A DNA stretch of 64,000 nucleotides from Antarcticibacterium flavum (GTDB taxonomy: Bacteria > Bacteroidota > Bacteroidia > Flavobacteriales > Flavobacteriaceae): assembly GCF_006159205.1 (NCBI RefSeq), contig NZ_CP040812.1, forward strand, positions 2,046,001-2,110,000, in the 5' to 3' direction. This document shows, piece by piece, positions 8,404 through 26,407 of this stretch. How positions within the stretch are numbered: the stretch's first letter is position 1; each line of letters begins with the position of its first letter. The translations under genes and the position numbers were made by a program. The notes beneath the pieces were generated by a model, which worked only from the letters and a program-made list of their open reading frames with translations, had not been told where the DNA came from and did not search any database.

Positions 8404-8424
8404 GCCTCGCCAAGAATCGAACTT
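8404..8424 (-). repeat. Left attachment repeat
   Basis: GCCTCGCCAAGAATCGAACT plus one T matches the 3' end of tRNA-Arg at 26338-26358 over 21 bases without mismatch. Beyond it the sequence no longer matches the tRNA. This marks the left junction of the island. Confidence 0.9.
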
Positions 8425-8473
8425 TCCCGCCGGAGGCCTTATTTTAAAGGGCTTTACCGAATTAACCTATATG

Positions 8474-8493
8474 ATGTTGACGATTTGTGAACT
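8474..8493 (+). repeat. Repeat B copy 2 (left island end)
   Basis: ATGTTGACGATTTGTGAACT is identical to 26214-26233 at the right end of the island and is in the same orientation. It lies 50 bases inside the left attachment repeat. Confidence 0.75.
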
Positions 8494-8504
8494 CTTTTTG
8501 GTGA

Positions 8505-8618
8505 TCTTTCACTTCGTTTACTAAAGATAATTATTTAGAATTAAAAGATGTCAAATATGTTTCTATAGCAGGAATATTTCCATTATTCGCTTTTATATTA
8601 ATGCTAATCAATTATTAG
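8505..8618 (+). pseudogene. Remnant: C-terminal end of a membrane protein
   Basis: After a TGA at 8502-8504 the frame stays open for 37 codons and ends in TAG at 8616-8618. It encodes TKDNYLELKDVKYVSIAG and then a hydrophobic segment IFPLFAFILMLINY. There is no start codon in a useful position. The composition and single terminal membrane helix suggest the tail of a lost gene at the left island end. Family not recognised. Confidence 0.35.
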
Positions 8619-8620
8619 AT

Positions 8621-8983
8621 TCATCTGTTGAATTTCCGGTAGTTGGGCCTGTCCCCGGAAGGTCGTTTCTTCTCCACCAGCAAGGGCTTCTTTTTTGGCT
8701 CCTCCTGTTCCAGTAGTGCCTGGAGAATCCCTATTGTTGGTTTGGTTTGAGTCTTTTCAATTTCCTTTATAATAGCTATTACGGCGTTGATCCTTTTATT
8801 AATTAGTTTTTCAATAGTTTTCGCTGTAGGACCGATCTTTTCTTTTGGAGAAATTTCATTATAAAGGAAAAAATCCAACATTCCTGTTATTGCATCCGTA
8901 TGAGTTTTGTAATGAGTTCTGGAAAATTGCTGAAAGCGTTCAGCCGTTTTCTTTTCTATAGTGATGTTTTTAACCTTTTTCAT
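8621..8983 (-). CDS. BfmA/BtgA-type mobilisation accessory protein
   Basis: The protein has 120 residues and no signal peptide. The N-terminal half (VKNITIEKKTAERFQQFSRT and TDAITGMLDFFL) looks like the ribbon-helix-helix DNA-binding part of Bacteroidota BfmA/BtgA mobilisation proteins. The C-terminal half is lysine-rich with a basic tail. Such proteins help a relaxase act at the transfer origin of mobilisable elements. Here the relaxase expected on the same strand is missing, and structured non-coding DNA and an insertion sequence lie upstream. The protein might still serve a relaxase supplied by another element (inference). Confidence 0.72.
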   Translation of the reverse strand: MKKVKNITIEKKTAERFQQFSRTHYKTHTDAITGMLDFFLYNEISPKEKIGPTAKTIEKLINKRINAVIAIIKEIEKTQTKPTIGILQALLEQEEPKKKPLLVEKKRPSGDRPNYRKFNR

Positions 8984-9117
8984 AATTCAGACTTTTCTGA
9001 GGTTTACTGGTATTTTTGACCATTTTATTGGGGTTTAGAGCCCAAAACCAGTAAATCCATAATTTTTAAATTCACCCATTATTTTTAAATTATTGACCAT
9101 TAGGTGTTTAAAAACAA

Positions 9118-9166
9118 AAAGGAATGTTTAACACCGCTCTGCGTGTTACCCTCTTGCTATTCCTTT
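9118..9166. other. Nested inverted repeat, candidate origin of transfer
   Basis: Outer arms AAAGGAAT (9118-9125) and ATTCCTTT (9159-9166) enclose an inner hairpin TAACAC-CGCTCTGC-GTGTTA (9129-9148) and a short CCCTC-rich arm. It lies 135 bases upstream of the mobilisation gene. Transfer origins commonly combine such a hairpin with an adjacent nick region. The assignment is by position and shape only. Confidence 0.4.
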
Positions 9167-9465
9167 ACCTCCTTAAACCGAAGATAAATTATTGTCGAAC
9201 TCTCTCCTGGAATAGGATAATTTTTGGGAAAAAACTTTAAGCGGAATTATTCTATTCCTAAAGAAGATGTGATTGTTATAGAAAAAATATAAAAGTACTT
9301 TAATGACAATTTTTTTGGATGGATATAGGTAATAGTAAAACCTTCAACTTTTATTTAAATTTACTTTTCATATCCGGAGCGTTTTCCATTTTTTTGAATA
9401 ACCAATTTTTGGATCTGATAACATCCTCCTCAGCTTAATTTACTTCCCATAGAGCCCTCGCTGTT

Positions 9466-9596
9466 ACCATTTTTTGATGCCTTATAATTTGTGATTTAGA
9501 ATTAGGATAGGCCGTAGGAAAATTGGGAAAATATCTCAATCGTCTTTAAGGCCGGCTAACTTCTAAATCACATTCCTTTGCTTCCCAAAAAATGGT
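9466..9596. repeat. 131-bp imperfect inverted repeat
   Basis: Outer arms ACCATTTTTT (9466-9475) and AAAAAATGGT (9587-9596) are exact complements. Inner arms TGTGATTTAGAA (9490-9501) and TTCTAAATCACA (9561-9572) are also exact complements. Inside them GGCC pairs are found near 9509 and 9550. It would fold as one long hairpin or could be a short MITE-like element. Confidence 0.7.
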
Positions 9597-9679
9597 TTTA
9601 CGGAGATGGTCTGGAGGGTGAATTTTGAATTGAAGTGACAGCTGGTTAATTAAGTTCTTAATGCGAGTTCAGGCCGGGC

Positions 9680-9774
9680 GGACTTATGTTTGAAATATTC
9701 TCACGGAAGTGAAGCGTCCCCGATTTTTCTGCGATGGGAGCGGAACGTAAGGAAGATATTTCAGACATGTGTCC
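9680..9774. repeat. 19-bp inverted repeat with 57-bp loop
   Basis: Arms GGACTTATGTTTGAAATAT (9680-9698) and ATATTTCAGACATGTGTCC (9756-9774) are complementary at 16 of 19 positions. The enclosed loop is richer in G and C than its surroundings. Function unknown. Confidence 0.65.
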
Positions 9775-9911
9775 AAGACTGCTCTACGAAGCTCTTTTCC
9801 CGCAATGGAGTATAACGGAATGGAGGGAAATGTGCTGAGGGGTTGGAAGTGCAAAATATGATTACGAGATTATGTATTACCAGTGATATCACTATATTGA
9901 ACTATTCTAGA

Positions 9912-9921
9912 TCCTTTATCC
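9912..9921. repeat. Target site duplication, left copy
   Basis: ATCCTTTATC directly abuts the left inverted repeat of the insertion sequence; the identical word follows the right inverted repeat at 11337-11346. Confidence 0.92.
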
Positions 9922-11336
9922 ACTGGCGTCCGGTAAACCAAATTAAATCCTACCTTAATACCATGGAAAAAGGGAGTCCTCGTTTTCGACCGCAGACTCC
10001 CTTTAAAGGTTCCACTTAAAGCGGACATTATGGACAAAATTACAAGAAATTCTGGAATGCCGGTTCTCGGACAGCTGTTATCTTTTATTCCCCGAAGCAA
10101 TTTTAACCGTTTAGTTGGCCAATTAGGTACAGATCGCTATACCAAACGATTTACATCCTGGGATCACCTGGTCTGTATGTTGTTTGCGGTTATTGAGAAT
10201 GTTGGCGGATTACGTGAGTTATGCTCTGGTTTAGCAGCACATAATCAAAGTTTAAAACATTTAGGAATGAGTTCTATGCCATGCAGAAGCACCGTGAGTG
10301 ATGCTAATATGCGCCGGTGTTCTGAGTTGTTTGAAAAAACCTTTATAAGCATATATAAGCAGCACTATCGTTTTTTCTCGGACAGCAGTATACCTAAAAA
10401 TGAAAAATGGCTCTCCAGGCTGTTTTTGGTTGACTCTACCACTGTTACGTTATTCAAGAATATAATGAAGGCCTGTGGTAATGCTATGGCTAACGGGAGG
10501 CGTAAGGGAGGAGTTAAAATACATACTGGAATGTGGCTAAAAGAACAAGTTCCTTCTTTAATAATGATTACTAAAGCAGCGGAAAATGATAAAAATTTTA
10601 TGCCCCGATTTAAAAAACTTCCTGCACAGACCATTGTAGTTTTTGATAAGGCATACTTAAATTTTGGTTTATTTATTCATTGGAGTAAAAACGATGTCAG
10701 TTTTGTAAGCCGACTGCACAAAAGATGCAAAGTAACTTGGGGGAATTATAACCTCTTAACTAAGGAGGATGAGCAATATGGCATATTGGAAGACTGTAGA
10801 GCAGAATTAGGGCATAGCCAGCAAAAACAAAAAGTAAAATGCCGCATTATAAAGTTTTATGATCACAAAGATCAACGGGAAATTGAATTTATTACCAATG
10901 ATATGCAGCTGCCTGCTTGCACAATTGCAGAAATATACAAGCAGCGATGGCAAATTGAGCTTTTATTTAAAAGGCTCAAGCAAAACCTTAAGATCACCAG
11001 CTTTATTGGCGATAATGAGAATGCAATACGAATTCAAATCTGGTGTGCACTTATAGCGGATTTACTGGTCCAAATAGCTCGAAAAGGGTCTCGACGTTGC
11101 AGATTATCTTATTCGGTGATTTGCGGGCTATTTAGACTTCATTTAATGAATTATGTGAGAGTTACAGACTTACTTTTAAAATCAGCAGATCCTAACATTT
11201 ATCCTAAAAATATACAGCTTGCACCTAACCTTTTTGACATAGGACCCCCATAGATTGAAAATAAAAATCGAAGTGAGGTAGAATCAAGGTTTATTAAGAT
11301 TAAAACAAGAAATACTATTTTTACCGGACGCCAGTG
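9922..11336 (+). mobile_element. Complete IS4-family insertion sequence, 1415 bp
   Basis: Perfect 17-bp terminal inverted repeats CACTGGCGTCCGGTAAA (9922-9938) and its complement (11320-11336) flank a single transposase gene. The 10-bp duplication ATCCTTTATC at both sides shows simple transposition into the island. The transposase is uninterrupted, so the element may be active. IS4-family members usually make 8-13 bp duplications, consistent with this one. Confidence 0.95.
10030..11253 (+). CDS. IS4-family DDE transposase
   Basis: The protein has 407 residues. The N-terminal domain (MPVLGQLLSFIPRSNFNRLV, FTSWDHLVCMLFAVIENVGG) is the DUF4372-type DNA-binding region common in this IS group. 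The DDE catalytic core is visible: first Asp in FLVDSTTVTLF, second Asp in VVFDKAYLNF, and Glu in the Y-R-E-K signature YKQRWQIELLFKRLK. It sits alone inside the IS with terminal repeats on both sides. The ATG at 10030 is 108 bases inside the left repeat. Confidence 0.95.
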   Translation: MDKITRNSGMPVLGQLLSFIPRSNFNRLVGQLGTDRYTKRFTSWDHLVCMLFAVIENVGGLRELCSGLAAHNQSLKHLGMSSMPCRSTVSDANMRRCSELFEKTFISIYKQHYRFFSDSSIPKNEKWLSRLFLVDSTTVTLFKNIMKACGNAMANGRRKGGVKIHTGMWLKEQVPSLIMITKAAENDKNFMPRFKKLPAQTIVVFDKAYLNFGLFIHWSKNDVSFVSRLHKRCKVTWGNYNLLTKEDEQYGILEDCRAELGHSQQKQKVKCRIIKFYDHKDQREIEFITNDMQLPACTIAEIYKQRWQIELLFKRLKQNLKITSFIGDNENAIRIQIWCALIADLLVQIARKGSRRCRLSYSVICGLFRLHLMNYVRVTDLLLKSADPNIYPKNIQLAPNLFDIGPP

Positions 11337-11346
11337 ATCCTTTATC
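11337..11346. repeat. Target site duplication, right copy
   Basis: ATCCTTTATC follows the right inverted repeat and is identical to 9912-9921. Confidence 0.92.
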
Positions 11347-11476: not shown

Positions 11477-12004
11477 ATGGTAGATTTAAGCTTGCAAATG
11501 TTTTTTCCAACATTTGTATGTGTCGCAATAGTTTTTATCCTGTTTTGGAAATATGTAAAGAAGATCTTACCAGTCAGTAAACGGGTGCCAGTTATTGAGG
11601 GAGTTAAAAATTATAGACGCCTTCACAGAATTAATAGCCATTTCTGGGGCATATTTTCTTGTTTTGTTGTTCAGATATTAGTTTATTCCATTGCTCCCCA
11701 GTTTTTATTTATATTTTTTCCTGTTGATCATTTACAGCATCCCGTAATTCTTGGAATTGGTGTTTTATTACTCAAATTTTCGTTGGGAATTATATTAATA
11801 GCTCAAATTCAAATCGATCAAAAATTAACTCAGATTACGAAAGAAAATGATCAAACCATTTTATTCAAATCTTTGCGAAGGTTCGAAGGGTTGCTAATTT
11901 CCGGGATGATGTTAATTTTTATAGGCTTTTCGATCACTATACCTTCCCTATTCAGTTTAACACTTGTTATAATTGGATTCTATATATATAACAAAACAAT
12001 ATAG
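11477..12004 (+). CDS. Four-helix membrane protein of unknown family, paralogue A
   Basis: The protein has 175 residues and four predicted membrane segments (about 9-27, 56-76, 87-110, 133-170). It is clearly homologous to the next gene. Shared positions include IFWK near the first helix, RLxRI before helix 2, YSxAPxxxFIFFPxxxLxHPxI between helices 2 and 3, LIAQxQID after helix 3, and SGMxLxFIG at helix 4. I do not recognise the family. It lies just upstream of a K+/H+ antiporter on the same strand, so an accessory role in ion transport is possible (inference from position). Confidence 0.7.
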   Translation: MVDLSLQMFFPTFVCVAIVFILFWKYVKKILPVSKRVPVIEGVKNYRRLHRINSHFWGIFSCFVVQILVYSIAPQFLFIFFPVDHLQHPVILGIGVLLLKFSLGIILIAQIQIDQKLTQITKENDQTILFKSLRRFEGLLISGMMLIFIGFSITIPSLFSLTLVIIGFYIYNKTI

Positions 12005-12175: not shown

Positions 12176-12730
12176 ATGCCCGATTACAATTTACAGATAT
12201 TTTTACCAGCATTAATGCTAGTTGCTACAAGTTTGGTGATATTTTGGAAATTTGCCAGAAATGCGGTGAAAGTTACCTCTTCACATTCTATAGAGAAAAT
12301 GACGGCCTACGATAGATTGAAAAGAATAAGTGGTTATTACTGGGCAATTTTTATTTGTTTCATTTTTATGACATTCATTTACTCCTTAGCTCCTGAGTAT
12401 TATTTTATTTTTTTTCCAATAGAAAAATTACATCATCCATTAATAAATCAGACTGGGATGTTGATTTTAAAAATAGCTGTAGTTTGGATATTAATAGCCC
12501 AATTACAAATAGATAAAGAACTATATAAATACTCAAGGGATATAGAAAGTTTATCGGCAATGGAGTTGATAAGATATTCCGAAAAAAGACTATTATCAGG
12601 AATGCTAGTTTTATTTATCGGTCTTGTAACAACTATTACAAATCTTATTGGTTTTGTACTCGTATTTATTAGTTGTCTGGTGTACTACAAAATTTTTAAA
12701 ACTAATCGAAATTTAGAAAATTGGAATTAA
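12176..12730 (+). CDS. Four-helix membrane protein of unknown family, paralogue B
   Basis: The protein has 184 residues with the same four-helix plan and signature positions as the preceding gene (IFWK, YSLAPEYYFIFFPIEKLHHP, LIAQLQID, SGMLVLFIG). A soluble stretch of about 25 residues between helices 3 and 4 carries most charges. It ends 42 bases before the antiporter start, so the two are probably cotranscribed. The tandem duplication beside an antiporter suggests a heteromeric or co-evolving partner, but nothing in the sequence gives a reaction. Confidence 0.7.
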   Translation: MPDYNLQIFLPALMLVATSLVIFWKFARNAVKVTSSHSIEKMTAYDRLKRISGYYWAIFICFIFMTFIYSLAPEYYFIFFPIEKLHHPLINQTGMLILKIAVVWILIAQLQIDKELYKYSRDIESLSAMELIRYSEKRLLSGMLVLFIGLVTTITNLIGFVLVFISCLVYYKIFKTNRNLENWN

Positions 12731-12772
12731 TGCCTTTCTAATTCAGTTGTATCCCCCGGAAAAAAAACAAGT

Positions 12773-14254
12773 ATGGATTTAACAATTGAAAACGTATTAT
12801 TAATTGGTTCTCTCCTACTTCTAGTAAGCGTTGTCATAGGTAAAACTTCATATAAATTTGGCGTTCCAACTTTATTGCTCTTCCTGGTGATTGGGATGTT
12901 GGCTGGTTCTGACGGTATTGGCGGCATTCATTTTAACAATCCAGAAATTGCACAATTTATTGGTATCGTATCCCTTAGTTTTATTTTGTTCGCCGGGGGA
13001 TTAGAAACAGATTGGACCACCGTAAAACCTATTCTGCGGGAGGGACTTGTTTTATCAACCATAGGCGTGTTGCTCACAGCTCTCACTCTGGGAGTATTTG
13101 TATGGTTCGTTACAGATTTTACTATTTATGAAAGTATGCTTTTAGGTTCTATTGTATCTTCAACAGATGCAGCCGCAGTTTTTTCTATCCTACGCTCTAA
13201 AAGTCTTGCATTAAAGGTAAACCTTCGTCCGACCCTGGAATTGGAAAGTGGTAGTAATGACCCAATGGCCTATGTTTTAACTATTGCATTCTTAACCTTA
13301 GTAATTAATCAGGATCAAAGTATTGTTTCCATTATTCCGCTGTTTTTTCAACAAATGATTTTAGGAGGCATTGCAGGTTTTGTTTTTGGGAAGCTTAGCA
13401 AAGTTATGATTAATAATATTAAACTTGACTTTGAAGGTCTTTACTTTGTACTGGTAATAGCTCTTATGTTCATTACATTTTCCGCAACAGATTTTGTAGG
13501 TGGTAATGGATTTCTTGCTATCTATATTTGTGCGGTTTATTTAGGGAATCAGGAATTCATTCATAAGAAAACAATCTTCAAAATGTATGATGGATTAGCC
13601 TGGTTAATGCAAATTGTTTTGTTCCTTACTTTAGGTTTATTAGTTTACCCGTCACAAGTATTTCCCTACATGGGGATTGGTCTCTTAATTTCATTATTTC
13701 TTATTATTGTTGCCAGACCAATAAGCGTTTTTTTAAGCCTTATGTTTTTCAAAATGAGACTAAGAAGACGGTTTTACATCTCCTGGGTTGGATTGCGTGG
13801 TGCTGTGCCTATAGTGTTTGCAACTTACCCTCTTTTAGCAGGAATTGACAAGGCAAATACAATTTTCAATATTGTATTTTTTATTTCAGTAACCTCTGTA
13901 TTAATTCAGGGAACAACCTTATCTATAGTTGCCAAATGGCTTAATGTTGTCCTGCCTGAAAAAGCTAAAAGAATTACAGAAGTAGATAAATTAATATTAG
14001 ATCTTCCAAAATCTTCCTTGAAAGAATTTGTAATTTCACCGGATTCCTATGCAGTTAATAAGAGAATCGTTAATTTAAATTTCCCAAAATCTGCTTTTAT
14101 AATAATGATTAAAAGAAGAGAGGAATATCTCCGACCAGGAGGTTCAACAGAAATTGAACCTAAAGATATATTGATGGTGCTTGCAGACCATCCGGAAGAT
14201 TTTGTTAAGGTGAATGATTGCTTATACACGCAGCGTGACGCAACAAAATCTTAG
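12773..14254 (+). CDS. CPA1-type K+/H+ antiporter with RCK_C domain, copy 1
   Basis: The protein has 493 residues. The first 385 or so form a Na+/H+ exchanger-type transporter with about 12 membrane segments. It carries the family's conserved ELESGSNDPMAY motif with the Asn-Asp pair, and SWVGLRGAVPIVFATYPL. A soluble TrkA_C/RCK_C domain follows at about 405-480. This architecture matches NhaP2/CvrA K+/H+ antiporters of the inner membrane, which export K+ in exchange for protons. A second, very similar copy lies at 20994-22478 in the same orientation. It follows two unknown four-helix proteins and precedes a Usp gene. Confidence 0.9.
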   Translation: MDLTIENVLLIGSLLLLVSVVIGKTSYKFGVPTLLLFLVIGMLAGSDGIGGIHFNNPEIAQFIGIVSLSFILFAGGLETDWTTVKPILREGLVLSTIGVLLTALTLGVFVWFVTDFTIYESMLLGSIVSSTDAAAVFSILRSKSLALKVNLRPTLELESGSNDPMAYVLTIAFLTLVINQDQSIVSIIPLFFQQMILGGIAGFVFGKLSKVMINNIKLDFEGLYFVLVIALMFITFSATDFVGGNGFLAIYICAVYLGNQEFIHKKTIFKMYDGLAWLMQIVLFLTLGLLVYPSQVFPYMGIGLLISLFLIIVARPISVFLSLMFFKMRLRRRFYISWVGLRGAVPIVFATYPLLAGIDKANTIFNIVFFISVTSVLIQGTTLSIVAKWLNVVLPEKAKRITEVDKLILDLPKSSLKEFVISPDSYAVNKRIVNLNFPKSAFIIMIKRREEYLRPGGSTEIEPKDILMVLADHPEDFVKVNDCLYTQRDATKS

Positions 14255-14434: not shown

Positions 14435-15253
14435 ATGATTAAAAGAAACAGAATACTGGTCCTGATCGACTTTTCCAAAAACACAGAGAACCTTATAGAT
14501 TTTGGATTCAATATAGCCGAGCTCATTGATGCCAAAGTTGTTTTTGTACATCAGGTACCCGGTTTAGTACCGGCAATGGCCGATGAGGAAAGCAGAAGAG
14601 AGATTATACAAGTGGAGATTAATGAAGCTTATTCAAAACTTCGTGAACTTGCAAAAGGTCGTATCTATAGTAATGATTCCTTTCAGGTTAGTGAGAAACC
14701 TATTCTTGTTCTTCTCAGAGGTCTTTCTTCCCCGAAGTATTTTGATTGGGTGTTTACAGGCTTAAAAGAAAGCGGGATTCTAAAACGTTTGTTTATTGGC
14801 AGCATTACCCTTTCAATCATAGACGAATCGGATATGTTGACGGTTACCGTACCTACAAATTCGAAGATGAACCCTCCCAAAAAACTCCTGGTAGGGGTTC
14901 ACCCCACTTATACACTGAACGGGGAACACCTGCATACGGTATTAAAAGCCTTTGAAAATAATTTAGAGAAAATTGAATTCTTTACTATTTTGAAAGAGAC
15001 CGAAACAGAGCAAAAAGCCAGAGAGCATCTTTTACATTTACAAGCCGAATACAACAATTATGATCCTGCTATCCAGATATACAGGGGGAATGATGCTACT
15101 TCTGCATTAAGAGATAAAATTAAGCAAAGCCATAATTCATTCTTAGTTCTTCAACAAGGTTCACGCTCCCTAACCGATAATCTTTTCAGAAAATTTACCA
15201 TTAATGAACTGGTATACCGGGGGCAAACTCCACTCATTGTTTTATCTAAATGA
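14435..15253 (+). CDS. Tandem-domain universal stress protein
   Basis: The protein has 272 residues with no signal or membrane segment. Two Usp-like halves are seen. The first begins RILVLIDFSKNTENLIDFGF with the Asp typical of the start of Usp folds. The second begins KKLLVGVHPTYTLNG. The second ends with a segment LVLQQGSRSLTDNLFRKF and the terminal strand TPLIVLSK, which is the usual Usp end. The G-2x-G-9x-G(S/T) nucleotide motif is weak, so ATP binding is not assured. It lies between antiporter copy 1 and a permease that itself carries Usp domains, suggesting a common stress or ion-regulation theme. Confidence 0.85.
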   Translation: MIKRNRILVLIDFSKNTENLIDFGFNIAELIDAKVVFVHQVPGLVPAMADEESRREIIQVEINEAYSKLRELAKGRIYSNDSFQVSEKPILVLLRGLSSPKYFDWVFTGLKESGILKRLFIGSITLSIIDESDMLTVTVPTNSKMNPPKKLLVGVHPTYTLNGEHLHTVLKAFENNLEKIEFFTILKETETEQKAREHLLHLQAEYNNYDPAIQIYRGNDATSALRDKIKQSHNSFLVLQQGSRSLTDNLFRKFTINELVYRGQTPLIVLSK

Positions 15254-15380: not shown

Positions 15381-17586
15381 TTATTTTTTACTTATAAATA
15401 TTAAAGCCGTATTTGTATTTTTAGCCAGAGCATGAGCAAGGTGGCCAAATGCTTTCTCGTTTCTTTCTGCTTTACCTAATCCTATTATTACCAAATCATG
15501 TCCGGAAGCCTGGTTAATAAGTTCCGTTTCGACATCATCATTTGAAATGATTTGGACCTCGGTTTTTCCCGGAATGATACGGCGAGCAAAACGTGTAAGG
15601 TTCGAATTATTTTTTTGAAGTATTTCCGGTGGTGTATTAGATGGCAGGATTTGTATAAATTTGATCTCGGGCTGAGAGGCACGCCACAGGCTGGCAGCAA
15701 CCCTCACCCGGAGGGGGTCATGAGTTCCAAAACCAGCTACTGGAATAAGGATCTTTCGTGCTTCGGTAATTTTCCATCCACTGTAAGGTTGGCGGAACAC
15801 CACCACATCTGCCTTCACGTGTTTTACCAGTTTTTCAAGATTTTGACTGGTTTGAAGATCGTTCAGTTCACTCAACCCCAATAACAAGCTCCTGCAATTG
15901 TGAACTTTGACAACCCGTTCAATTTCTTCCCATGGATGGTCAGCAATAGTTGTAATTGTATCGGGACGTAAGCCCGCTTTAAAAGAAGCTTGAAGGGCGT
16001 ATTGTGTAACATCACCGCTTGATATAAGTCTTTTCTCAAGATCATCCTTTTCGGTGCTTGGGATTACGATAGAATGGAGCAGTACCCGCCCTACCACCGG
16101 TGGTGCCAGTGCCTTTGCCAGAAAAACCAGGGATTCCGCATTTGCAGGATTTGAAATAGGGAGCAGCACGAGGGGACTCAAGCCTCTTAATCGTAATAGG
16201 TCCGGATCCAGTGCTTGTTCAGATGCCTCAATGGCTCGGGCTCTTTTTACAAAAAAGGATATAAATAGGACGGCTCCTACAAGGAGCCAGATTAGTGCAA
16301 TAATTCCGGCAGCCGGTACCACAATCGCCTGAAAAATTGCTAATCCAACACAAGCGATTATTCCCACGAATGGAAGCGCAGGAAAGAAAGGCGCTCTATA
16401 GGTATTACTTTCTTTATATCCGCGATTTCGCATTAAGATCATGATAAGATGTGCCAGTGCAAAAGTTATTAGGAAGATCAAACTGGAAGCTGCACCGGCT
16501 GCGGCCAGATCGGGTAGGATTAAAACAAGAAGTGCTACAATCCCGCAGGTAACCCAAATCGACGTATCAGGTGTCCCGAATTTTTCATTAATATTTGACA
16601 GGTGATGATTTAATGTACGGTCTTTAGCCATTCTCAATGAGATGCGTGAAGCTGCAAAAAGGTTGGCCTGCAAAGCTGATAACATTGAAAATATACCTGC
16701 AACCAAAACCAGCCAGAATCCAAAAGCTCCCAGGTAATTTTGTGCAGCGACTGCCAGAACGGTTTCAGGATTTTCCCGACTCAATTCTGTTATTGACTCC
16801 CCCGGCAGCACGCCAACGGTAGACATAATAAACAGCAAGGCCAACTGCAAGTGTACCCACCATTGCCTTTGGGATTGTTTTTTCCGGATTTTTGATTTCA
16901 CCTGCGGCAGAACCAATTAAATCAAATCCCTGCAAAGCGATAAACGTATACCCCATTGCAGCGATTACTCCGCTAAAACCTCCGGAAAAAAATGGGTCGA
17001 GGCTTTGTGTTATTTGGTTGAATGGTGTTTGCACAAAAGCAGCAAGTCCACCGGCTATGAGTATGGCAAAAACAGCAAGTTTACCAATATTAATAACCGC
17101 GCCTCCATCGCCGGAACTTCTGATAAGACTGAACGCGAAATATCCTATGGCTGCGAAGGCAAGCAAAACCGGAACCATTCCAAATTCCAGGATTCCGCTT
17201 AGCACGTCTGACGGAATTTGCTGAAGAGCGAACAAAGCAAAGGCACCAAATCCAAGAGCATAAAGAACAGCGGCTACAAGCGAGGCAAACCAAACGATCC
17301 ACCCTATCCCAAAGGCTACCTGAAGCGATAGCGCCTTCTTGGCATAGGTATAGGTGCCGCCAGACTGCGGATTCGCTGAAGCCATTTCGGCAAAACTCAG
17401 CGCTGTAATAAAGGCTATCAGTCCGTTTAGCGCAAAGGCCAGAATTGCCGAAGGCCCGCTCACTGCAAAGGCCACCCCGGCAAGAGCCAATATTCCGCCC
17501 CCAACCATCGCTCCCACCCCAATGCCCAATGCCCGGAAAAATCCTATTTTGCGTGTGGTTACTGAAGTAAATGGAGCTGGATTCAT
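15381..17586 (-). pseudogene. APC permease fused to C-terminal Usp domains, frameshifted
   Basis: Two overlapping frames together encode about 734 residues. The N-terminal frame (from ATG at 17586) has the APC-superfamily start FFRALGIGVGAMVGGGILAL and continues to GTLAVGLAV. The second frame resumes with MSTVGVLPGESITELS, completes the 12-helix permease, and then carries two soluble Usp-type domains (final SGHDLVIIGLGKAERNEKA). The frames switch near 16830. Removing one base there, for example one T in TTATTATG on the coding strand, restores a plausible join. This differs from the other frameshifts in the window, which need an added base. The substrate is probably an amino acid or amine, with the Usp part regulatory. 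It may be a true pseudogene or an assembly error. Confidence 0.82.
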
Positions 17587-17774: not shown

Positions 17775-19398
17775 ATGGAAGCCATCCACTCTCACCCCTT
17801 TTACGAATTTGCTATCCTTCTTTTGATTTCTGCTATTTTAGCTTCGTTAGGTAAAATTTTAAAACAACCTATTATTATTTCTTTTATTGCGGTTGGAATA
17901 TTAATAGGTCCTGAAGTTTTAGATTTACTGCAATCTCGTGAGCAAATTGAATTACTCGCGGAGATAGGAATTGCAATCCTTCTTTTTATAGTTGGTTTAA
18001 AATTGGATCTAAACCTTATTAAATCTACTGGTCCAGTTGCCTTTATAACGGGCATAGGTCAGATTATATTTACCGCGGGATTTGGGTATTTAATTGCCAT
18101 TTCACTTAATTTTTCTGTTGTCCATTCCATATATATTGCAGTTGCCCTGACATTTTCAAGTACAATTATTATTGTGAAAATGCTTTCCGATAAAAACGAG
18201 ATTGATAAGTTACATGGTCAAATAGCTATGGGATTTCTTATCGTTCAAGATATTGCCGTTGTAATAACTATGATTGTACTCTCAGCTTTTGGGGAAACTG
18301 GAGGAGAAACCAATATCGGGAGCCAGCTATTAATGGTATTATTAAAAGGCATCGCTTTTATAGCAATAATAATTTTATTAATAAAATATGTAATTGACTC
18401 TGCACTAAGAAAACTCGCGAGGAATAAGGAATTGCTTGTGCTTTCATCCATTGCCTGGGCAGTAACTTTAGCAGCTGCCGGAGATTATCTAGGTTTTGGT
18501 TTGGAAGTGGGCGCTTTTGTTGCAGGAATGTCCCTTGCATCAACCCATTATCGAGAGATCATCTCAGGACGACTAGAAAGTATCCGTGATTTTATGCTTT
18601 TATTCTTTTTATTAATCTGGGAGCAGATATAGAACTTTCCATACTTGGTGATCAATTAATTCCAGCCATTTTATTTTCATTATTTGTTTTAATAGGAAAT
18701 CCAATAATTGTTATGGTAATTATGGGAATTATGGGTTATAAAAAGCGGGTGAGCTTTCTCGCGGGTTTGACGGTTGCTCAAATCAGTGAATTTTCTTTGA
18801 TTTTGGCAGCTCTCGGATTAAGTAATGGCCATATTGATGAAGAAACCTTAGGTCTTATAACCTTAGTTGGATTAATTACAATAGGATTGTCAACCTATAT
18901 TATTCTTTATTCCGGTCCAATATTTCAAAAATTATCTCCATTACTTAGCATCTTTGAAAAAAGGAACCTACAAAGGGAAAAGAAGATGAAACTCCTGAAA
19001 CTATAGATTATATAATTATAGGTGTTGGAAGTTTTGGCCAACATTTGGCAGAGAACCTTCTTGAAAACAACCACAATATTATGATAGTGGATTTTGATCC
19101 AGAGGTTGTAAACCATTGGTTGGACAAAGGAATCAAAGCTGAATATGCTGATGCTCAAGACCCCGAATTACCGTCTTTATTACCAATTAAAAACACCAAT
19201 CATATTATTAGCACCTCTACAAATGTTGAAACTAATATAAGATTGTTAAAATTTATGGAGGAAAATAATTTTGAGGGTAAAATTACAACTTTAGCCCAAT
19301 CAGATAATGATGAAGAGAAATTAAAAGAGTGCGGTTCATATACAGTACTTAGGCCTTTTAAAGAGGCCGCGACTAAAATACTTGAGAACTCAAATTAG
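17775..19398 (+). pseudogene. KefB-like CPA2 cation/proton antiporter with TrkA_N, two frameshifts
   Basis: Three consecutive frames together encode one CPA2 transporter of 541 residues. The first 280 residues show the exchanger domain (GKILKQPIIISFIAVGILIG, ALTFSSTIIIVKMLSDKNE). The second frame completes it (FLAGLTVAQISEFSLILAAL). The third is a TrkA_N NAD-binding domain with the Rossmann GVGSFGQHLAENL. The breaks are at T5 18606-18610 and A6 18957-18962. One extra base in each run restores the frame (giving LLFFFINLGADIELS and FEKKEPTKGKED), so the gene is probably intact. The family exchanges K+ for H+ and is gated by nucleotide or thiol adducts. Confidence 0.85.
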
Positions 19399-19428
19399 GT
19401 TTGTTTTCATAGTTCCAATTTCATAATC

Positions 19429-19806
19429 ATGACCAGTTATAAATTTAAAATAGGATGTTTTCTGTCCGGTTTGATTCTCAGCTATATCTCAACATATCAC
19501 AATAGGTATGGCGAAATTGAACTGTGGGAATTTCATCACCAGATTTCCATGGCTGTATCTGGCATGATAGTAGCTTTGCTAATCAGGATTTCATCAAGTG
19601 CTAATTTCAAAATTATTGGCTTATATCTGAGTATTGGTATTATTAGCGTTCAACTTATTCCAATATCTAGATCAATTTTCACTAACGACCCTATCGAATT
19701 TTCTTTTTCCCTGCTAGTTTATACTGTTGTAGCTTTTCTGTCTTCATTCATTGGCGGCTATCTAGGAGAATTTTTATTAAAGGATAAGTATAAAGGGAGA
19801 TCTTAG
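19429..19806 (+). CDS. Small four-helix membrane protein, unknown
   Basis: The protein has 125 residues and four hydrophobic segments (about 8-22, 40-55, 63-80, 90-115), the last followed by a Lys/Arg-rich tail ending KYKGRS. The start is ATG 30 bases after the antiporter stop. I do not recognise the family. Its position right behind the KefB-like antiporter on the same strand suggests cotranscription. Confidence 0.6.
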   Translation: MTSYKFKIGCFLSGLILSYISTYHNRYGEIELWEFHHQISMAVSGMIVALLIRISSSANFKIIGLYLSIGIISVQLIPISRSIFTNDPIEFSFSLLVYTVVAFLSSFIGGYLGEFLLKDKYKGRS

Positions 19807-20993: not shown

Positions 20994-22478
20994 ATGGATT
21001 TAACAATAGAGAATATTTTACTCATTGGTTCCTTGCTCCTTTTTATCAGTGTCCTGGCGGGAAAAACCTCATACAAATTTGGTGTTCCTACGTTGATTTT
21101 GTTTTTAGCCATTGGAATTTTGGCTGGAACTGAAGGGATTGGAGGGATTAATTTTGAAAGTTCAAATCTTGCCCAATTCATAGGAATTATTGCCCTAAAT
21201 TTTATTTTGTTTTCCGGAGGGTTGGACACCAGTTGGAAGAGTATTAAACCGGTGGTTTGGCAAGGTGTTTCTTTGTCTACTCTGGGAGTTTTACTTACAG
21301 CTCTTGGTGTTGGGCTTTTTGTATGGGCTATAACTGATTTTACGATTTTTGAAGGGCTTCTGTTAGGAGCCATTGTTTCCTCTACAGATGCGGCAGCAGT
21401 TTTTTCAATTTTAAGATCTAAAAACCTGGCTTTGAAAAGCAATTTGAGGCCTACCCTTGAATTGGAAAGTGGTAGTAATGATCCTATGGCTTATTTTCTT
21501 ACCATTGCTTTTCTTGGTCTGGTAGTGAATCAGGATCGGAGCCTATGGAACATTATTCCTTTATTCCTTCAGCAAATAATAATTGGAGCAGCTCTCGGTT
21601 TATTATTTGGGAAACTTAGTAAATTCATTATCAATAAAATTAAGCTCGATTTTGAAGGTCTATACCCTGTATTAGCTATCACCCTTATGTTTATAATATT
21701 TTCTGCAACAGATTTTGTTGGAGGAAATGGATTTCTCGCTGTGTATTTAAGCGGGGTTTTGTTGGGGAATGCTAATTTAATCCATAAGAAAACCATTATG
21801 CGGATGTTTGATGGCTTAGCTTGGCTCATGCAAATTGTACTATTCTTAACCTTAGGACTTCTCGTGAATCCTTCAGAAATAATTCCCGTTTTAGGTATTG
21901 GAATGTTAATTTCAGCATTCCTTATTTTGATTGCAAGACCCCTGGGTGTTTTTATTAGTCTCTCCTTTTTTAAAATGAAAATGAGAAGAAGATGGTATAT
22001 TTCCTGGGTAGGCTTAAGAGGCGCTGTTCCCATTGTTTTTGCAACTTACCCTCTTATTGCGGGAATTGATAAAGCAGATATTATCTTCAACATCGTTTTT
22101 TTTGTTTCTTTATCCTCTGTTCTTGTTCAGGGAACTACTCTATCAATAGTGGCTAAATGGTTACACGTGGGATTACCTTCAAAAGTCAAACCCGAATCTC
22201 CGGTCGACAAATTTTTAGCTGATGGAGCTAAATCATTAATGAGGGAAATAACTATTCCCCCGGATAATGAAAGTATAGGTAAAAAAATTGTAAATCTCGA
22301 TTTCCCCCGGGGAGCCATTATAGCCATGATCATGAGGAATGGGAAATTTATAACTCCAAATGGAACAACTATTATTGCAGCTAATGATGTCCTCGTGGTT
22401 TTATTTGAAAATATCTCCACGATAGAGGAGGCATATCAACAGCTACAACTTCCTATCATAGAGGAGGAATTGAACTAA
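20994..22478 (+). CDS. CPA1-type K+/H+ antiporter with RCK_C domain, copy 2
   Basis: The protein has 494 residues and is collinear with copy 1 from the first residue (MDLTIENILLIGSLLLFISV) to the end. It shows the same ELESGSNDPMAY and SWVGLRGAVPIVFATYPL motifs, about 12 membrane segments and a C-terminal RCK_C domain (GKKIVNLDFPRGAIIAMIMR). The two copies diverge mainly in the C-terminal domain and loops, so their regulation may differ. Likely role: K+ (or Na+) efflux coupled to proton entry at the inner membrane. The two genes point the same way, 8.2 kb apart. Confidence 0.9.
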   Translation: MDLTIENILLIGSLLLFISVLAGKTSYKFGVPTLILFLAIGILAGTEGIGGINFESSNLAQFIGIIALNFILFSGGLDTSWKSIKPVVWQGVSLSTLGVLLTALGVGLFVWAITDFTIFEGLLLGAIVSSTDAAAVFSILRSKNLALKSNLRPTLELESGSNDPMAYFLTIAFLGLVVNQDRSLWNIIPLFLQQIIIGAALGLLFGKLSKFIINKIKLDFEGLYPVLAITLMFIIFSATDFVGGNGFLAVYLSGVLLGNANLIHKKTIMRMFDGLAWLMQIVLFLTLGLLVNPSEIIPVLGIGMLISAFLILIARPLGVFISLSFFKMKMRRRWYISWVGLRGAVPIVFATYPLIAGIDKADIIFNIVFFVSLSSVLVQGTTLSIVAKWLHVGLPSKVKPESPVDKFLADGAKSLMREITIPPDNESIGKKIVNLDFPRGAIIAMIMRNGKFITPNGTTIIAANDVLVVLFENISTIEEAYQQLQLPIIEEELN

Positions 22479-22750: not shown

Positions 22751-23119
22751 TTATCCACATCCAATGTAAAAAGAAATTACACCGGCAATTGCGCCGCCAA
22801 TTGCTGCTCCTAATGTTCCAGAAATTAATAAATTTGAATTAAGAATTTTCCAGGAACTAGGAATGATTGCAGGACTTAATTTTTCGGCAAAATTTATACA
22901 TTTCTCAGGACCAAGTTCTACCATTTCTCTAAAATTCTCTCCTGGTAAAATTGAGTTTGGACTTATTCCGGTGGTACAAAAAACTGCACGAAATTGTAAA
23001 AGTAAAGAAACCGCTTTTTCCTCCTTTGATGAAAGATTTTGAAGTACGTATTCTCCATTTGATTCCAATTTTTCCAAGATTAATTCCATATTATGGTAGA
23101 CGTTTTCTCTTTTTTCCAT
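22751..23119 (-). CDS. Hypothetical protein with C-terminal membrane helix
   Basis: The protein has 122 residues. The first 90 are soluble and amphipathic (NVYHNMELILEKLESNGEYV). The C-terminus is one glycine/alanine-rich helix (LGAAIGGAIAGVISFYIGCG). The glycine-zipper-like repeat GxxxGxxxG suggests helix packing or membrane insertion. No family recognised. It is the first minus-strand cargo gene left of the integration module. Confidence 0.5.
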   Translation of the reverse strand: MEKRENVYHNMELILEKLESNGEYVLQNLSSKEEKAVSLLLQFRAVFCTTGISPNSILPGENFREMVELGPEKCINFAEKLSPAIIPSSWKILNSNLLISGTLGAAIGGAIAGVISFYIGCG

Positions 23120-23543
23120 GTGTTATTATATTATATTTTGTTGTAGCATCAAAAGGTAGAAAAAAACTGAGATACCCTTAGTATATGCGGCAAAAACTTC
23201 TTCTCTATATTGTTTGATAAGGGTCCCCATTTAGAAGACATACTTTAAAATTTTTTGTAATAATCTCAGCATGGATTAGGTGGGTTACTATGAAGCAATC
23301 CATACCAATAAGATTTTAGGATGCTTGGCGTACTTGTACAGGAAATTAATTATTGGACATCTCGATACAGCTATATCTATTATTGGACCTCACTGTCCCA
23401 TAATTGATGGTCAAGTGAAACACTACTATACCAATTCTCAGCCAACCAAAAAATAAACAGGAAAACATCATAACGGTGGCGCTATCGCGCTGCAGGAAGG
23501 TTTTATTTTTTGGTTTTTTTATTTTTCCTTTATAACCTTTATT
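23120..23543. other. Intergenic region with a strong inverted repeat
   Basis: No coding frame was found in these 424 bases. They contain the 14-bp inverted repeat at 23444-23515, annotated separately. The word ATTATTGGAC occurs twice, near 23347 and 23382. Confidence 0.4.
23444..23515. repeat. 14-bp perfect inverted repeat with inner GC hairpin
   Basis: Arms AACCAAAAAATAAA (23444-23457) and TTTATTTTTTGGTT (23502-23515) are exact complements. Inside, GCGC-TATC-GCGC (23479-23490) forms a second hairpin. It lies 28 bases past the stop of the 249-aa gene and is followed by T-rich sequence, so it may act as its terminator. It is longer than a normal terminator. Confidence 0.65.
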
Positions 23544-24293
23544 TTATGCTTTCAGTTTTTTCCGTTTTGTGAAAAGAAAAAGAGGTAAAATGGTATCGAT
23601 TAACTGCAACCGATATTCTCCCTGGTGAAAGACCAGATTATTCTCTAACTCGTTATACTTTAAGCATAATTCCATTGCTCTCTTATGAGGTATTATAGAA
23701 CTATAATTCTTGGTTATTTTAATTAGCTCTTGACTCCCTGCTCTGGCCTTTAACCTGGAAGCAGTTGATACAGATAAACCGAATATTTTATTTATTCCTG
23801 ATAATGATATAGGTGCCGCCGCCTCCTGGCAATTAAAATTAGAAGAAAGAAAATGATAGGTACTGCCTTTTATTTGTACGCTTTTCCTTTTCCTAACTTT
23901 TCTCCAGAAGTCTTTGCGCAAATACCCATACAGGACTGCTCCTGTTATGGCCTTTATGTTTTGATAATTTTCAAAAGTAACCGGGTACGCAAGCCTAACT
24001 TTCCAATCATTTTCCGTCCTAATCCTGTCAAAGGATTTTAAAATATAATAACCTGTCCTGGCATTGTAATGAATCCAGCCTTTCTTTATAAAAAATTGAA
24101 TGTATTGCAGGGTAGTTTTTCTGGTCCTTATTTGTTCCACCAGTTCAAGAAATAGTAGATCCTTCTCCCTGAGTTTTGTCTTACCACTTTTGTACAGGAG
24201 TTTAAGGCATAGAAACACCCTCAGTTTCCTTCCACAGGACTGTTTCTGCCCCTCCAGGAACATTTCTATGGGAACTGATAAACCTGCACTCAT
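23544..24293 (-). CDS. Hypothetical protein of the integration module, HTH-like
   Basis: The protein has 249 residues, basic, with no signal peptide. An HTH-like segment is seen around residues 165-195 (LSGINKIFGLSVSTASRLKA). The N-terminal half has K/R-rich helices. It starts 5 bases after the stop of the 93-aa HTH gene on the same strand, so the two are almost surely cotranscribed. The position after an excisionase-like gene and an integrase suggests a role in element excision, replication or regulation. Family not recognised. Confidence 0.6.
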   Translation of the reverse strand: MSAGLSVPIEMFLEGQKQSCGRKLRVFLCLKLLYKSGKTKLREKDLLFLELVEQIRTRKTTLQYIQFFIKKGWIHYNARTGYYILKSFDRIRTENDWKVRLAYPVTFENYQNIKAITGAVLYGYLRKDFWRKVRKRKSVQIKGSTYHFLSSNFNCQEAAAPISLSGINKIFGLSVSTASRLKARAGSQELIKITKNYSSIIPHKRAMELCLKYNELENNLVFHQGEYRLQLIDTILPLFLFTKRKKLKA

Positions 24294-24298
24294 AAAAC

Positions 24299-24580
24299 TT
24301 AGAGATTAACGTGTTTGTAGTGCTGATCCAGAAAAACATGAATATCCTTTAGTTTGTAATAAATTTTTCCTTTTACCTGGGCATAATTACTTAAGCCTTC
24401 ATCTCTCCAGGTCTGCGCGGTTTTGGAACTGATCTTGAACATATGTAGAAAATCTGCATTGTTAAGGATTATGTATTCCGGATCCTGTATTTGATCTTTT
24501 TTGAACTCCCTTAGCAGCTGTTCCATTTTCAGCTCAAGGGAATTCAAGCTTACCAAAAATGGATGTTCTAACTTTTCCAT
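24299..24580 (-). CDS. Excisionase-like helix-turn-helix protein
   Basis: The protein has 93 residues. The C-terminal half matches the HTH_17/MerR-like fold common in Bacteroidota element-encoded DNA-binding proteins: NADFLHMFKISSKTAQTWRD, then YYKLKDIHVFLDQHYK. The N-terminal third is a short coiled coil. Genes of this type next to a tyrosine integrase usually act as recombination directionality factors or regulators. It is followed by the 249-aa gene and lies 278 bases downstream of the integrase stop on the same strand. Confidence 0.75.
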   Translation of the reverse strand: MEKLEHPFLVSLNSLELKMEQLLREFKKDQIQDPEYIILNNADFLHMFKISSKTAQTWRDEGLSNYAQVKGKIYYKLKDIHVFLDQHYKHVNL

Positions 24581-24705
24581 TATACAAATTTTTAAATTAA
24601 TAAATAGAATTTACCTCTCCTATTCAATCCCAGAGAAGTGAAATTCAGCTTCATTGAATCATTGATCTCACCGTCCTGTATAAAATAGGGCCGGTGAAAT
24701 CCTGT

Positions 24706-24721
24706 GATTAGACTTTCGTAC
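24706..24721 (+). repeat. Inverted repeat flanking integrase, copy 1
   Basis: GATTAGACTTTCGTAC is the complement, with one mismatch, of GTACGAAAGTCCAATC at 26147-26162. The two copies bracket the integrase gene in opposite orientation. Confidence 0.6.
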
Positions 24722-24857
24722 ATTCAAAGATTAAAGCAATAGACCAGGTCTAAATTGAAAGATTGAATTTTAACATTCGAGGAGTCAAAGAATTATGGAT
24801 TTGATAGAAAATTCGTCGAATTCCTATAAAATTTAAAATTGAGGTTGAGGCTGCGTT

Positions 24858-26120
24858 TCACCAAATTTTCTCTTTTCTGGTCTCATTAAATGCAAAATTT
24901 CCATTCAACTTTTTCTGTAAGATATCCATATCTTCATTAACTTTTCTTTCAATGACCTTTGCGTATATCTGGGTGGTGGAAAGTTTCCTGTGGCCTAAGA
25001 TCTTGGAAACTGTTTCAATGGGAACCCCGTTTGTTAATGCAACTGTAGTTGCAAACGTATGCCGGGCAAGGTGAAAGGTTACATTTTTTTTAATCTTGCA
25101 GGTTATAGCAATTTCTTTCAAATAACTATTAAGCTTTTGATTTGAAATTAGCGGTAAAAGGCTATTATTAACCTGACAGTCTTCATCATTCTTGTATTTT
25201 TCAAGAATGATAATAGCATTTGACAACAAGGGCAGTTTAACCTGATTTCCATTCTTTTCACGCCGGGTTACTATCCATAATTTCTTGTCTATTCCAATGG
25301 AAACATTCTGAGGTGTGAGCAGCATTAGGTCACCATAACTTATACCGGTATAGCAGCTAAAAATAAAGAGATCTCTAACTCTTTGGAGTCTTGGAATTTC
25401 CGGTTCCAGATCTTCAATTTTCTGAAGTTCCTCCACAGTCAAAAATTCTCTTTCTTTCTGCTCCAGATGGGGCTTAAACTTTACAAAGGGATCCCGGTCA
25501 ATCCACTCCAGGTGAAAAGCCAGCGTCACCATTTTTCTCAAACGTTGGATATGCTTCATAACTGCATTATGCTGAAGACAGGTTTGATAATGCCTGGGAC
25601 GGATTGACCTGAGATAATTTTCAAACTTTATTATAAAACTGTAATCTAACTCCTTTAAGTAAAAATCCGATCTTCTATATTCCTTTTTAATGAATCTCCT
25701 TATATAATTTTGACTTGTAATATAAAGACGGGAGGTGTTATGTTTCAGTTTAGAAAAAAAATTTTCATTGTGATATGTGTATAGATCTTCTAAAGAAACC
25801 AGGTGATCGAAACCCCCAAAATATTTTGATTTGATATTCTCTGGCGATAAGATCTTCCCTTCTATTCTTAATTCCTGGTAACACTGAAATAATTTTGAGT
25901 ATTCCTGATCCAAATACTGATTAAGATCTTTGGATTTAGGACATGTACCTTTTACCCTCCTCTTCTTCTGATCCCAGAGGTGTATATCAGCCTTTCGTTT
26001 GAGACTGATATTTAATTTTTTACCATTTATGGTGATCCTTGCATAAATAACCGCTAAGTTATTTATTGCCCTTTTGGAATAAATCCAAAATAAAACTGAA
26101 AATGTTGACTGTGTACGCAT
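24858..26120 (-). CDS. Tyrosine recombinase (island integrase)
   Basis: The protein has 420 residues. It has an N-terminal arm-binding domain, an SAM-like core-binding domain (residues about 110-215) and a C-terminal catalytic domain. The catalytic residues HLARHTFATTVALTNG (HxxR), LGHRKLSTTQIYAKV (GH and the Tyr nucleophile) are present, as is a candidate Lys in RREKNGNQVKL. Where the first Arg is expected the sequence is CYTGISYGDL, with Ser instead of Arg. The same change is known in IntDOT-type integrases of Bacteroidota. The gene starts 217 bases from the tRNA and reads away from it, the usual layout for a tRNA-integrating island. Confidence 0.95.
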   Translation of the reverse strand: MRTQSTFSVLFWIYSKRAINNLAVIYARITINGKKLNISLKRKADIHLWDQKKRRVKGTCPKSKDLNQYLDQEYSKLFQCYQELRIEGKILSPENIKSKYFGGFDHLVSLEDLYTYHNENFFSKLKHNTSRLYITSQNYIRRFIKKEYRRSDFYLKELDYSFIIKFENYLRSIRPRHYQTCLQHNAVMKHIQRLRKMVTLAFHLEWIDRDPFVKFKPHLEQKEREFLTVEELQKIEDLEPEIPRLQRVRDLFIFSCYTGISYGDLMLLTPQNVSIGIDKKLWIVTRREKNGNQVKLPLLSNAIIILEKYKNDEDCQVNNSLLPLISNQKLNSYLKEIAITCKIKKNVTFHLARHTFATTVALTNGVPIETVSKILGHRKLSTTQIYAKVIERKVNEDMDILQKKLNGNFAFNETRKEKIW

Positions 26121-26146
26121 GGTTGATGATTTTAAGTTGAACTTTA

Positions 26147-26162
26147 GTACGAAAGTCCAATC
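26147..26162 (-). repeat. Inverted repeat flanking integrase, copy 2
   Basis: GTACGAAAGTCCAATC lies 27 bases upstream of the integrase start and complements 24706-24721 with one mismatch. It may be an integrase or excisionase binding site. Confidence 0.6.
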
Positions 26163-26213
26163 ACCAAATAGTGCGTTTTATTAGGGTTCAATTTAAGGAA
26201 TCAGGCTGTAAAA

Positions 26214-26237
26214 ATGTTGACGATTTGTGAACTTTTT
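26214..26237 (+). repeat. Repeat B copy 3 (right island end)
   Basis: ATGTTGACGATTTGTGAACT matches 8474-8493 exactly. With the following TTTTATG it also matches the chromosomal copy at 8285-8308. Confidence 0.75.
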
Positions 26238-26277
26238 ATGCCTTATCATTTAACATTCTTTAAAATCATAAAAAATG

Positions 26278-26313
26278 CAAAACCCTGATAATCATACGAT
26301 TAAGAGGGTTTTG
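26278..26313 (-). terminator. Terminator of tRNA-Arg carried by the island
   Basis: Arms CAAAACCCT and AGGGTTTTG pair around an 18-base loop just downstream of the tRNA 3' end. It is a diverged copy of the hairpin at 8344-8379, showing that the island brought its own tRNA-downstream segment. Confidence 0.7.
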
Positions 26314-26335
26314 AGCTTTTAGAAAATGTTAAAAG

Positions 26336-26407
26336 AGGCCTCGCCAAGAATCGAACTTGGATCTACAGTTTAGGAAACTACTATTCTATCCATTGAACTA
26401 CGAGGCC
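26336..26407 (-). tRNA. tRNA-Arg (CCT)
   Basis: On the minus strand the 72 bases fold as a cloverleaf. The acceptor stem is GGCCTCG/CGAGGCC, followed by T8-A9 and a D-arm. The anticodon loop TTCCTAA has anticodon CCT. The T-arm is CCAAG-TTCGATT-CTTGG, and the discriminator is T. CCA is not encoded. The island integrase uses its 3' part: the last 21 bases or so are repeated at 8404-8424. Confidence 0.93.
26338..26358 (-). repeat. Right attachment repeat within tRNA-Arg
   Basis: These 21 bases of the tRNA T-arm and acceptor stem are identical to 8404-8424. They form the right junction, with the tRNA restored. Confidence 0.9.

Follow-up and report, generated by a model that had tools for sequence, protein, structure and literature searches.

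A probable relaxase-less mobilizable island with bfmA and an oriT-like site in the tRNA-Arg(CCT) gene of Antarcticibacterium flavum

How does a genomic island travel that has an integrase and no relaxase of its own? Many genomic islands carry an integrase and no conjugation genes, and according to a 2017 review their travel route is unknown (PMC5704250). The question is raised by an 18-kb island in the chromosome of Antarcticibacterium flavum, which lies within the stretch of 64,000 nucleotides analyzed here (positions 2,046,001 to 2,110,000 of contig NZ_CP040812.1, assembly GCF_006159205.1; called the window, with coordinates counted from its first letter). The island is inserted in a tRNA-Arg(CCT) gene and encodes BfmA, an accessory protein of the relaxosome, next to a sequence resembling an origin of transfer (oriT). 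As the oriT-like site is present and the enzyme is absent, the island probably travels by the borrowed relaxase of other mobile elements in the cell. The preferred reading, to which a probability of roughly three in four is assigned, is that of an integrated relaxase-less mobilizable island, of the mobilizable genomic island (MGI) or iOriT type, whose BfmA would recruit a relaxase and a type IV secretion system (T4SS) of resident elements, so that mobilization likely takes place in trans. A preliminary description of the locus had called it mobilisable by a guess from BfmA alone; this is now backed by the oriT-like site and by resident MobB-type relaxases and T4SS genes, the transfer itself being a prediction. 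The features carrying this reading are:

8404..8424, plus strand: left attachment core, a copy of the tRNA-Arg(CCT) 3' end (exact 21-mer)
8477..8492, plus strand: putative integrase arm site of the left end, 73 nt from the core start (recurs at this distance in other elements)
8621..8983, minus strand: bfmA, relaxosome accessory protein without adjoining relaxase (NF041200, 91 bits, cut-off 24)
9118..9159, minus strand: putative oriT, GCAAGAGG box (motif at 9141-9157) plus hairpin
24299..24580, minus strand: helix-turn-helix (HTH) protein, candidate excisionase (HTH_17, under cut-off)
24858..26120, minus strand: tyrosine integrase (PF17293, PF13102, PF00589)
26217..26232, plus strand: putative integrase arm site of the right end, 121 nt before the core
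26335..26407, minus strand: tRNA-Arg(CCT), integration target (ARAGORN, Rfam)
26338..26358, plus strand: right attachment core, within the tRNA 3' end (exact 21-mer)

It is nearly certain that the island and its boundaries are real. The 21-bp direct repeats at 8404-8424 and 26338-26358 are identical, as the preliminary description had stated; they had no matches in shuffled windows and occur at exactly two places in the closed 4.35-Mb genome even when up to three mismatches are allowed (control: 0). The right core lies inside the intact tRNA-Arg(CCT) gene and the left core is only a fragment of a tRNA 3' end. Joining the flanks in silico yields the tRNA 3' end GTAGCCTCG (plus strand), and the reading is identical in the relatives G013, G003 and G008. 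The tyrosine integrase beside the tRNA, likewise recognized before, is intact with its arm-binding, SAM-like and catalytic domains, giving the island the integrase and attachment sites of an integrative and mobilizable element (IME).

The tRNA locus was read in 15 further genomes, 14 of the same genus and one (G022) of another. Five of them (G014, G009, G007, G002 and G004) have empty sites, in which the tRNA lies 82-249 bp from homologues of the window's left-flank genes and no arm site is present. This comparison had been proposed as a check, and the gene order of the window is not that of all relatives at this tRNA; cores, integrase and empty sites together support the earlier placement of an integrated island in tRNA-Arg(CCT). 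The remaining loci vary: G022 harbors a related 5.4-kb element with exact cores, arm sites 73 and 122 nt from the cores and a truncated integrase; G011 has an integrase of 68-71% identity split in two pieces; in G001 the right arm site alone remains; in G003 5.5 kb separate the tRNA from the left-flank genes; in G010 and G013 no left-flank gene was found within 18 kb; in G008 and G012 the locus ends at a contig edge; and in G005 and G006 (L076 and L077, same genus) no tRNA-Arg(CCT) was found at the locus. In G006 a core resembling that of a left end is retained, together with a degenerate arm site. Of the 15 same-genus genomes searched, 14 (all but G015) have a match to the gene at 27308-28300 on the right of the tRNA, which we take to be a DUF1028 gene.

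The evidence for mobilization starts from the motif GCAAGAGGGTAACNNGC at 9141-9157 (minus strand), which lies upstream of bfmA and is accompanied by a hairpin. The noncoding DNA before all six bfmA genes of this genome has GCAAGAGGGTAAC together with a hairpin, and across the family GCAAGAGGGTAACNNGC occurs at 58 places in 33 of 120 genomes, the control giving no hits in the rows listed. A similar arrangement is found on plasmids: pBUN24, a Bacteroides plasmid typed as mobilizable, has GCAAGAGG and a hairpin about 170 nt before btgA, and on a Flavobacterium plasmid that carries bfmA and mobB, GCGAGAGG and a hairpin precede bfmA by about 155 nt (both hairpins seen by eye). The annotation of pBUN24 includes btgA and btgB, and PLSDB types the plasmid as MOBB; its BtgB scores 154.8 bits with NF041495, under the cut-off of 200. 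For this system it was reported that btgA binds oriT and that transfer needs btgA and btgB (PMC10865816). By this comparison, the conserved hairpin motif most likely represents oriT in the BtgA/BtgB (MOBB) system.

When the hairpins of 61 sites are aligned, 96.1% of the cells pair compared to 90.0% in shuffles, with pair 12-33 unpaired in 15 sites and one pair broken in the site of Salegentibacter lacus. Moreover, 27 cells are changed on both sides compared to 3.7 in shuffles (none of 500 as high), a covariation that stems mainly from two free columns and four divergent sites with one to two mismatches, since the pattern fixes most of the 5' arm. The site of the window folds better than its shuffles (z -3.3 over 51 nt, -2.1 over 81 nt).

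Sites of this kind are frequently found without a relaxase. Among 57 distinct motif places (one of the 58, G068:C53, was excluded), 35 have both bfmA and a MobB-type relaxase, 13 only bfmA and nine neither gene, so that 22 lack an adjacent relaxase, two of them at contig edges. Where present, the relaxase starts 554-794 nt downstream of the motif, and the first 30 survey loci hold up to 1.5 kb downstream of it. To look for both genes, tblastn was run with queries for BfmA (three) and for the relaxase (two); some bfmA calls are short or weak, and because the queries were few, divergent copies may be missed. The relaxase-less sites tend to lie near integrases of the same clade as that of the island: 10 of the 22 are within 3 kb of one compared to 0 of the 35 with relaxase (P = 1.5e-5; the limit was chosen post hoc, and two sites with a relaxase fall just beyond it, at 3.4 and 4.1 kb), and 17 of 22 compared to 3 of 35 are within 20 kb. 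Integrases were counted at E 1e-60 or better among the matches listed, chiefly from genomes with oriT places, and as this list is incomplete the distances are upper bounds.

In agreement with the preliminary description, no relaxase was found in the island, neither by Pfam on its 19 open reading frames (ORFs), overlapping and antisense ORFs being outside the scan, nor as a MobB- or MbpB-type relaxase by tblastn over the whole window. These negatives cover the families searched, and some other relaxase family is conceivable. No T4SS domain, as expected of an integrative and conjugative element, was found in the island ORFs scanned with Pfam. The island therefore has neither the own relaxase of a canonical IME nor the adjoining MobB or BtgB of a MOBB module; it has the BfmA/BtgA-type protein, recognized before and here placed in NF041200, and a putative oriT that at sequence level is related to that of possible helpers.

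Such helpers are present in the same genome. A MobB-type relaxase adjoins four of its six bfmA genes, that of the island being one of those without. The four relaxases lie at about 172, 2935, 3909 and 4106 kb, and the two scanned by NCBIfam both score over the cut-off. Three TraG-type genes over the cut-off are located at 204, 2954 and 4052 kb, all outside the island (TIGR03783 also matches in 5 of 14 control genomes, never over the cut-off). Moreover, in protein sequence the island's BfmA and the relaxase-linked BfmA at 4106 kb have almost the same C-terminal tail but different N-terminal halves. Selection is a likelier cause of the shared tail than recent exchange, because DNA identity in this region is 83% (over 214 nt).

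The route suggested by these features would start with the integrase, aided by the HTH protein, excising an 18-kb circle and restoring the tRNA. BfmA would bind oriT and recruit a MobB-type relaxase from a resident element, for which the four loci named above are candidates. The nicked strand would exit via a resident T4SS, possibly one of those marked by the TraG-type genes, and the transferred strand would reintegrate into a tRNA-Arg(CCT) gene.

The interior of the island bears on an alternative to this route. It contains:

9921..11336, plus strand: IS4-family insertion sequence (IS), transposase at 10030-11253 (NF033592, 214.7 bits)
11477..12004, plus strand: hydrophobic protein, 39% identical to the next one (no Pfam or NCBIfam family)
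12176..12730, plus strand: hydrophobic protein with 43 database matches including its own copy (no family at cut-off)
12773..14254, plus strand: CPA1-type K+/H+ antiporter, intact (NF003716, 612 bits, cut-off 355)
14435..15253, plus strand: universal stress protein (Usp), intact (PF00582)
15381..17586, minus strand: APC permease-Usp gene, frameshifted (one AA_permease_2 domain over two overlapping frames)
17775..19398, plus strand: KefB-like antiporter gene, broken into three frames
19429..19806, plus strand: hydrophobic protein (no family matched)
20994..22478, plus strand: second CPA1-type K+/H+ antiporter, intact (NF003716, 609 bits, cut-off 355)
22751..23119, minus strand: small protein (no family matched)
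23544..24293, minus strand: conserved 249-aa protein with a winged-helix-like N-terminal part, present in some related islands

A decaying, immobile remnant, from which relaxase and conjugation genes were deleted and in which bfmA and oriT are leftovers, is an unlikely explanation that nevertheless has to be weighed, and several observations speak against a working mobilizable island. Beyond the oriT-like site, at 9356-9468, relic words are found that recur before ssb in the resident MOBB elements, which makes deletion the probable origin of the relaxase-less module and suggests that it may be left over. Near the oriT region the island has been entered by an IS, whose perfect terminal repeats of 17 nt lie at 9921-9937 and 11320-11336. 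The KefB-like and APC-Usp genes are broken, which indicates that part of the cargo is decaying, sequencing error being a possible source of the frameshifts; the three KefB pieces align to an intact 568-residue frame elsewhere in the genome. Together with the missing relaxase, these are the points in favor of decay. Other observations weaken single parts of the preferred reading. The HTH gene, described earlier as excisionase-like, matches HTH_17 weakly, at 20.5 bits against a cut-off of 27. The oriT assignment is based on comparison, and further pair types in the hairpin do not exceed shuffles (79 of 500 reach the count). In Leeuwenhoekiella L090 and Christiangramia L093 the arm site was not found at up to two mismatches. 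Finally, excision, nicking and transfer are all predicted from sequence.

An argument against decay is the intactness of integrase, HTH gene and bfmA, as well as of the cores and arm sites at the two ends. At 2667 kb, the genome has another bfmA, which shares 1.24 kb at 76% identity with the island's module and likewise lacks a relaxase, an ORF that is presumably Fic-like standing at the relaxase position. Between these two relaxase-less copies the ratio of nonsynonymous to synonymous substitutions is 0.11-0.16, at a synonymous divergence of 0.8-1.2 that is near saturation, and judged from this ratio bfmA is under purifying selection. Furthermore, the island of S. lacus at the same tRNA shares the relaxase-less bfmA-oriT state, and the survey described above revealed relaxase-less oriT sites to be frequent and often near integrases.

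It is also conceivable, at a far lower probability, that the hairpin motif is an operator of BfmA or another regulatory site and that the island moves by carriage on large chromosome pieces, by transformation or by phage. The motif lies mostly upstream of bfmA, which is an operator's place as well. However, at nine motif sites (one at a contig edge) the stretch read shows no bfmA and no relaxase, and three of these sites have an integrase within 3 kb; the layout before btgA/btgB on pBUN24 is similar; and no Rfam family matches at the site. A phage satellite or prophage remnant, suggested by the tRNA target and tyrosine integrase that prophages share, is scarcely credible, as no capsid, terminase or other phage structural domain was found by Pfam in the 19 island ORFs.

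The mobilizable island suggested here has relatives among known systems. MGIVchHai6 and MGIVmi1 are relaxase-less islands with MobI only, whose transfer was shown with the MobH relaxase of an IncA/C helper (PMC5704250). They resemble the present island in being integrated, in lacking a relaxase and in having a lone accessory relaxosome protein, MobI there and BfmA here. They differ in that their helpers are MobH-bearing IncA/C plasmids of Gammaproteobacteria, whereas the present island would rely on Bacteroidota elements of the MOBB type, and in that their transfer is demonstrated, whereas here it is predicted. iOriT elements are likewise integrated and have an oriT without relaxase; the island adds to this the gene of an oriT-binding accessory family, as compared with the elements in the portion of PMC11389934 considered, which names none from Bacteroidota. 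BtgA/BtgB (MOBB) plasmids such as pBUN24 share the BfmA/BtgA-family protein and the upstream GCAAGAGG box with hairpin, but in contrast to the island they have the btgB relaxase. Sister islands at the same tRNA are those of G249, G094 and Salinimicrobium profundisediminis (L086), with a related integrase, the tRNA-Arg(CCT) target and the arm site. They differ in having a relaxase-like MbpA/MbpB-type gene of their own and a primase-like gene; MbpA of L086 is over the cut-off, the MbpB-type proteins of G249 and L086 are below theirs, and the assignment for G094 comes from tblastn only.

The 2017 review names relaxase-less IMEs from Firmicutes and Proteobacteria and states that comprehensive searches for them were never performed (PMC5704250). 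A search of titles and opening abstract words in the open-access PMC literature gave no Bacteroidota case among the matches listed. The island would represent a new variety of relaxase-less mobilizable island, with an accessory relaxosome gene, in a phylum that the part of PMC5704250 considered does not name. More tentatively, at a chance slightly below even, relaxase-less oriT islands may form a widespread class in Flavobacteriaceae that is driven by integrases and rides on resident MOBB conjugative elements, some members having a BfmA whose adaptor tail docks onto the resident relaxase. With a searchable MOBB oriT consensus and a conserved attachment layout, such islands could be found in Bacteroidota and their helpers predicted.

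As for the attachment layout, integrase relatives of 66-79% identity were found at tRNA-Arg(CCT) in seven of eight named records scanned (Salinimicrobium profundisediminis, three Salegentibacter, Leeuwenhoekiella, a Flavobacteriia metagenome-assembled genome and Christiangramia, the last with the integrase in pieces); the eighth, Leeuwenhoekiella L091, begins at a contig edge. The arm 16-mer TTGACGATTTGTGAAC stands in direct orientation at both island ends, is found exactly in five of these seven relatives and, of 397 genomes of the family, occurs exactly in 21 (the own one included), at 37 places in total, with no control hits in any row. At up to two mismatches, control hits appeared in 8 of 12 genomes (16 compared to 39 for the pattern), so only exact or one-mismatch sites at the expected place were used. 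Among 45 loci scanned (30 from the exact-word search, 15 from the search with up to two mismatches), 17 have a tRNA on the expected side of the arm, namely 12 Arg(CCT), three Lys(TTT) and two Asp(GTC), two of the 17 having one arm mismatch; in all 17 right ends, including that of the island, 101-104 nt separate the arm from the tRNA 3' end. By eye, 26 of 44 loci look like left ends, the arm being preceded by a truncated tRNA 3' end, and one further locus is a relic; seven of the 37 exact places fell outside this reading. These data suggest that TTGACGATTTGTGAAC is an arm-type binding site for part of the integrase clade and that the core target switches between tRNAs while the arm site stays. 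Arm sites in like orientation were also seen 153 kb apart in G436 (C1, 3618084-3771005) and 136 kb apart in G087 (C27, 285621-421912), which may be either very large elements or stacked arrays.

In 18 stretches that had been chosen by integrase or arm sites, the integrase is common to all, bfmA and the 249-aa protein each to four, and the HTH protein to three plus S. lacus by tblastn, relatives of it being present in S. tibetensis and S. lacus. The oriT motif at up to two mismatches is absent from G420a, G199, G436, L085, G094 and L086 among these stretches, the reversed-motif control giving 0 in all. At tRNA-Arg(CCT), the islands of S. tibetensis, Leeuwenhoekiella and Christiangramia have an oriT motif without bfmA in the stretch read. 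The islands of G420 and G209 have divergent oriT-like sites (two mismatches) with hairpins at L171:1893-1934 (plus strand) and L172:4576-4617 (minus strand), and by eye no MobB- or MbpB-type relaxase was seen among their listed ORFs. The family of the 249-aa protein comprises 87 database matches, and one copy of 67% identity is probably in the same genome.

With its two K+/H+ antiporters and stress protein, the cargo would plausibly serve salt or pH stress. The preliminary description had taken it for a coherent set for ion homeostasis, which stands for the two antiporters and Usp. Its coherence is weakened, since of the five genes named there for transport or stress, two, APC-Usp and KefB, are broken, being one gene in two frames and one in three, and since the first antiporter has paralogues in the second one and in a third copy at 3183 kb, each at 69% identity. 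The paired hydrophobic membrane proteins at 11477-12004 and 12176-12730 are rare, the matches of the latter including Zunongwangia, Reichenbachiella, Psychroflexus and Echinicola. Related elements carry other cargo, read from their ORFs as putative sugar-use genes in S. lacus and TonB- and PepSY-like genes in S. tibetensis.

The earlier inventory had also overlooked, besides the IS4-family element and the oriT-like site, a neighbor of the island:

8278..8403, plus strand: probable remains of an older related element's integrase end, outside the island (similarity to the island's integrase end)

Its part 8337-8403 matches the island's integrase end at 52 of 67 positions, ungapped, and a degenerate arm site with one mismatch (8285-8300) precedes the left core by 119 nt, together with a terminator-like hairpin; it is probably the relic end of an older element. 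The same stack of relic end and abutting island was seen in S. lacus (G434:C41, 91884/92067). Further left, at 4524-7092, three paralogous secreted-type genes, presumably YSC84/SYLF-like, surround a RidA-like gene.

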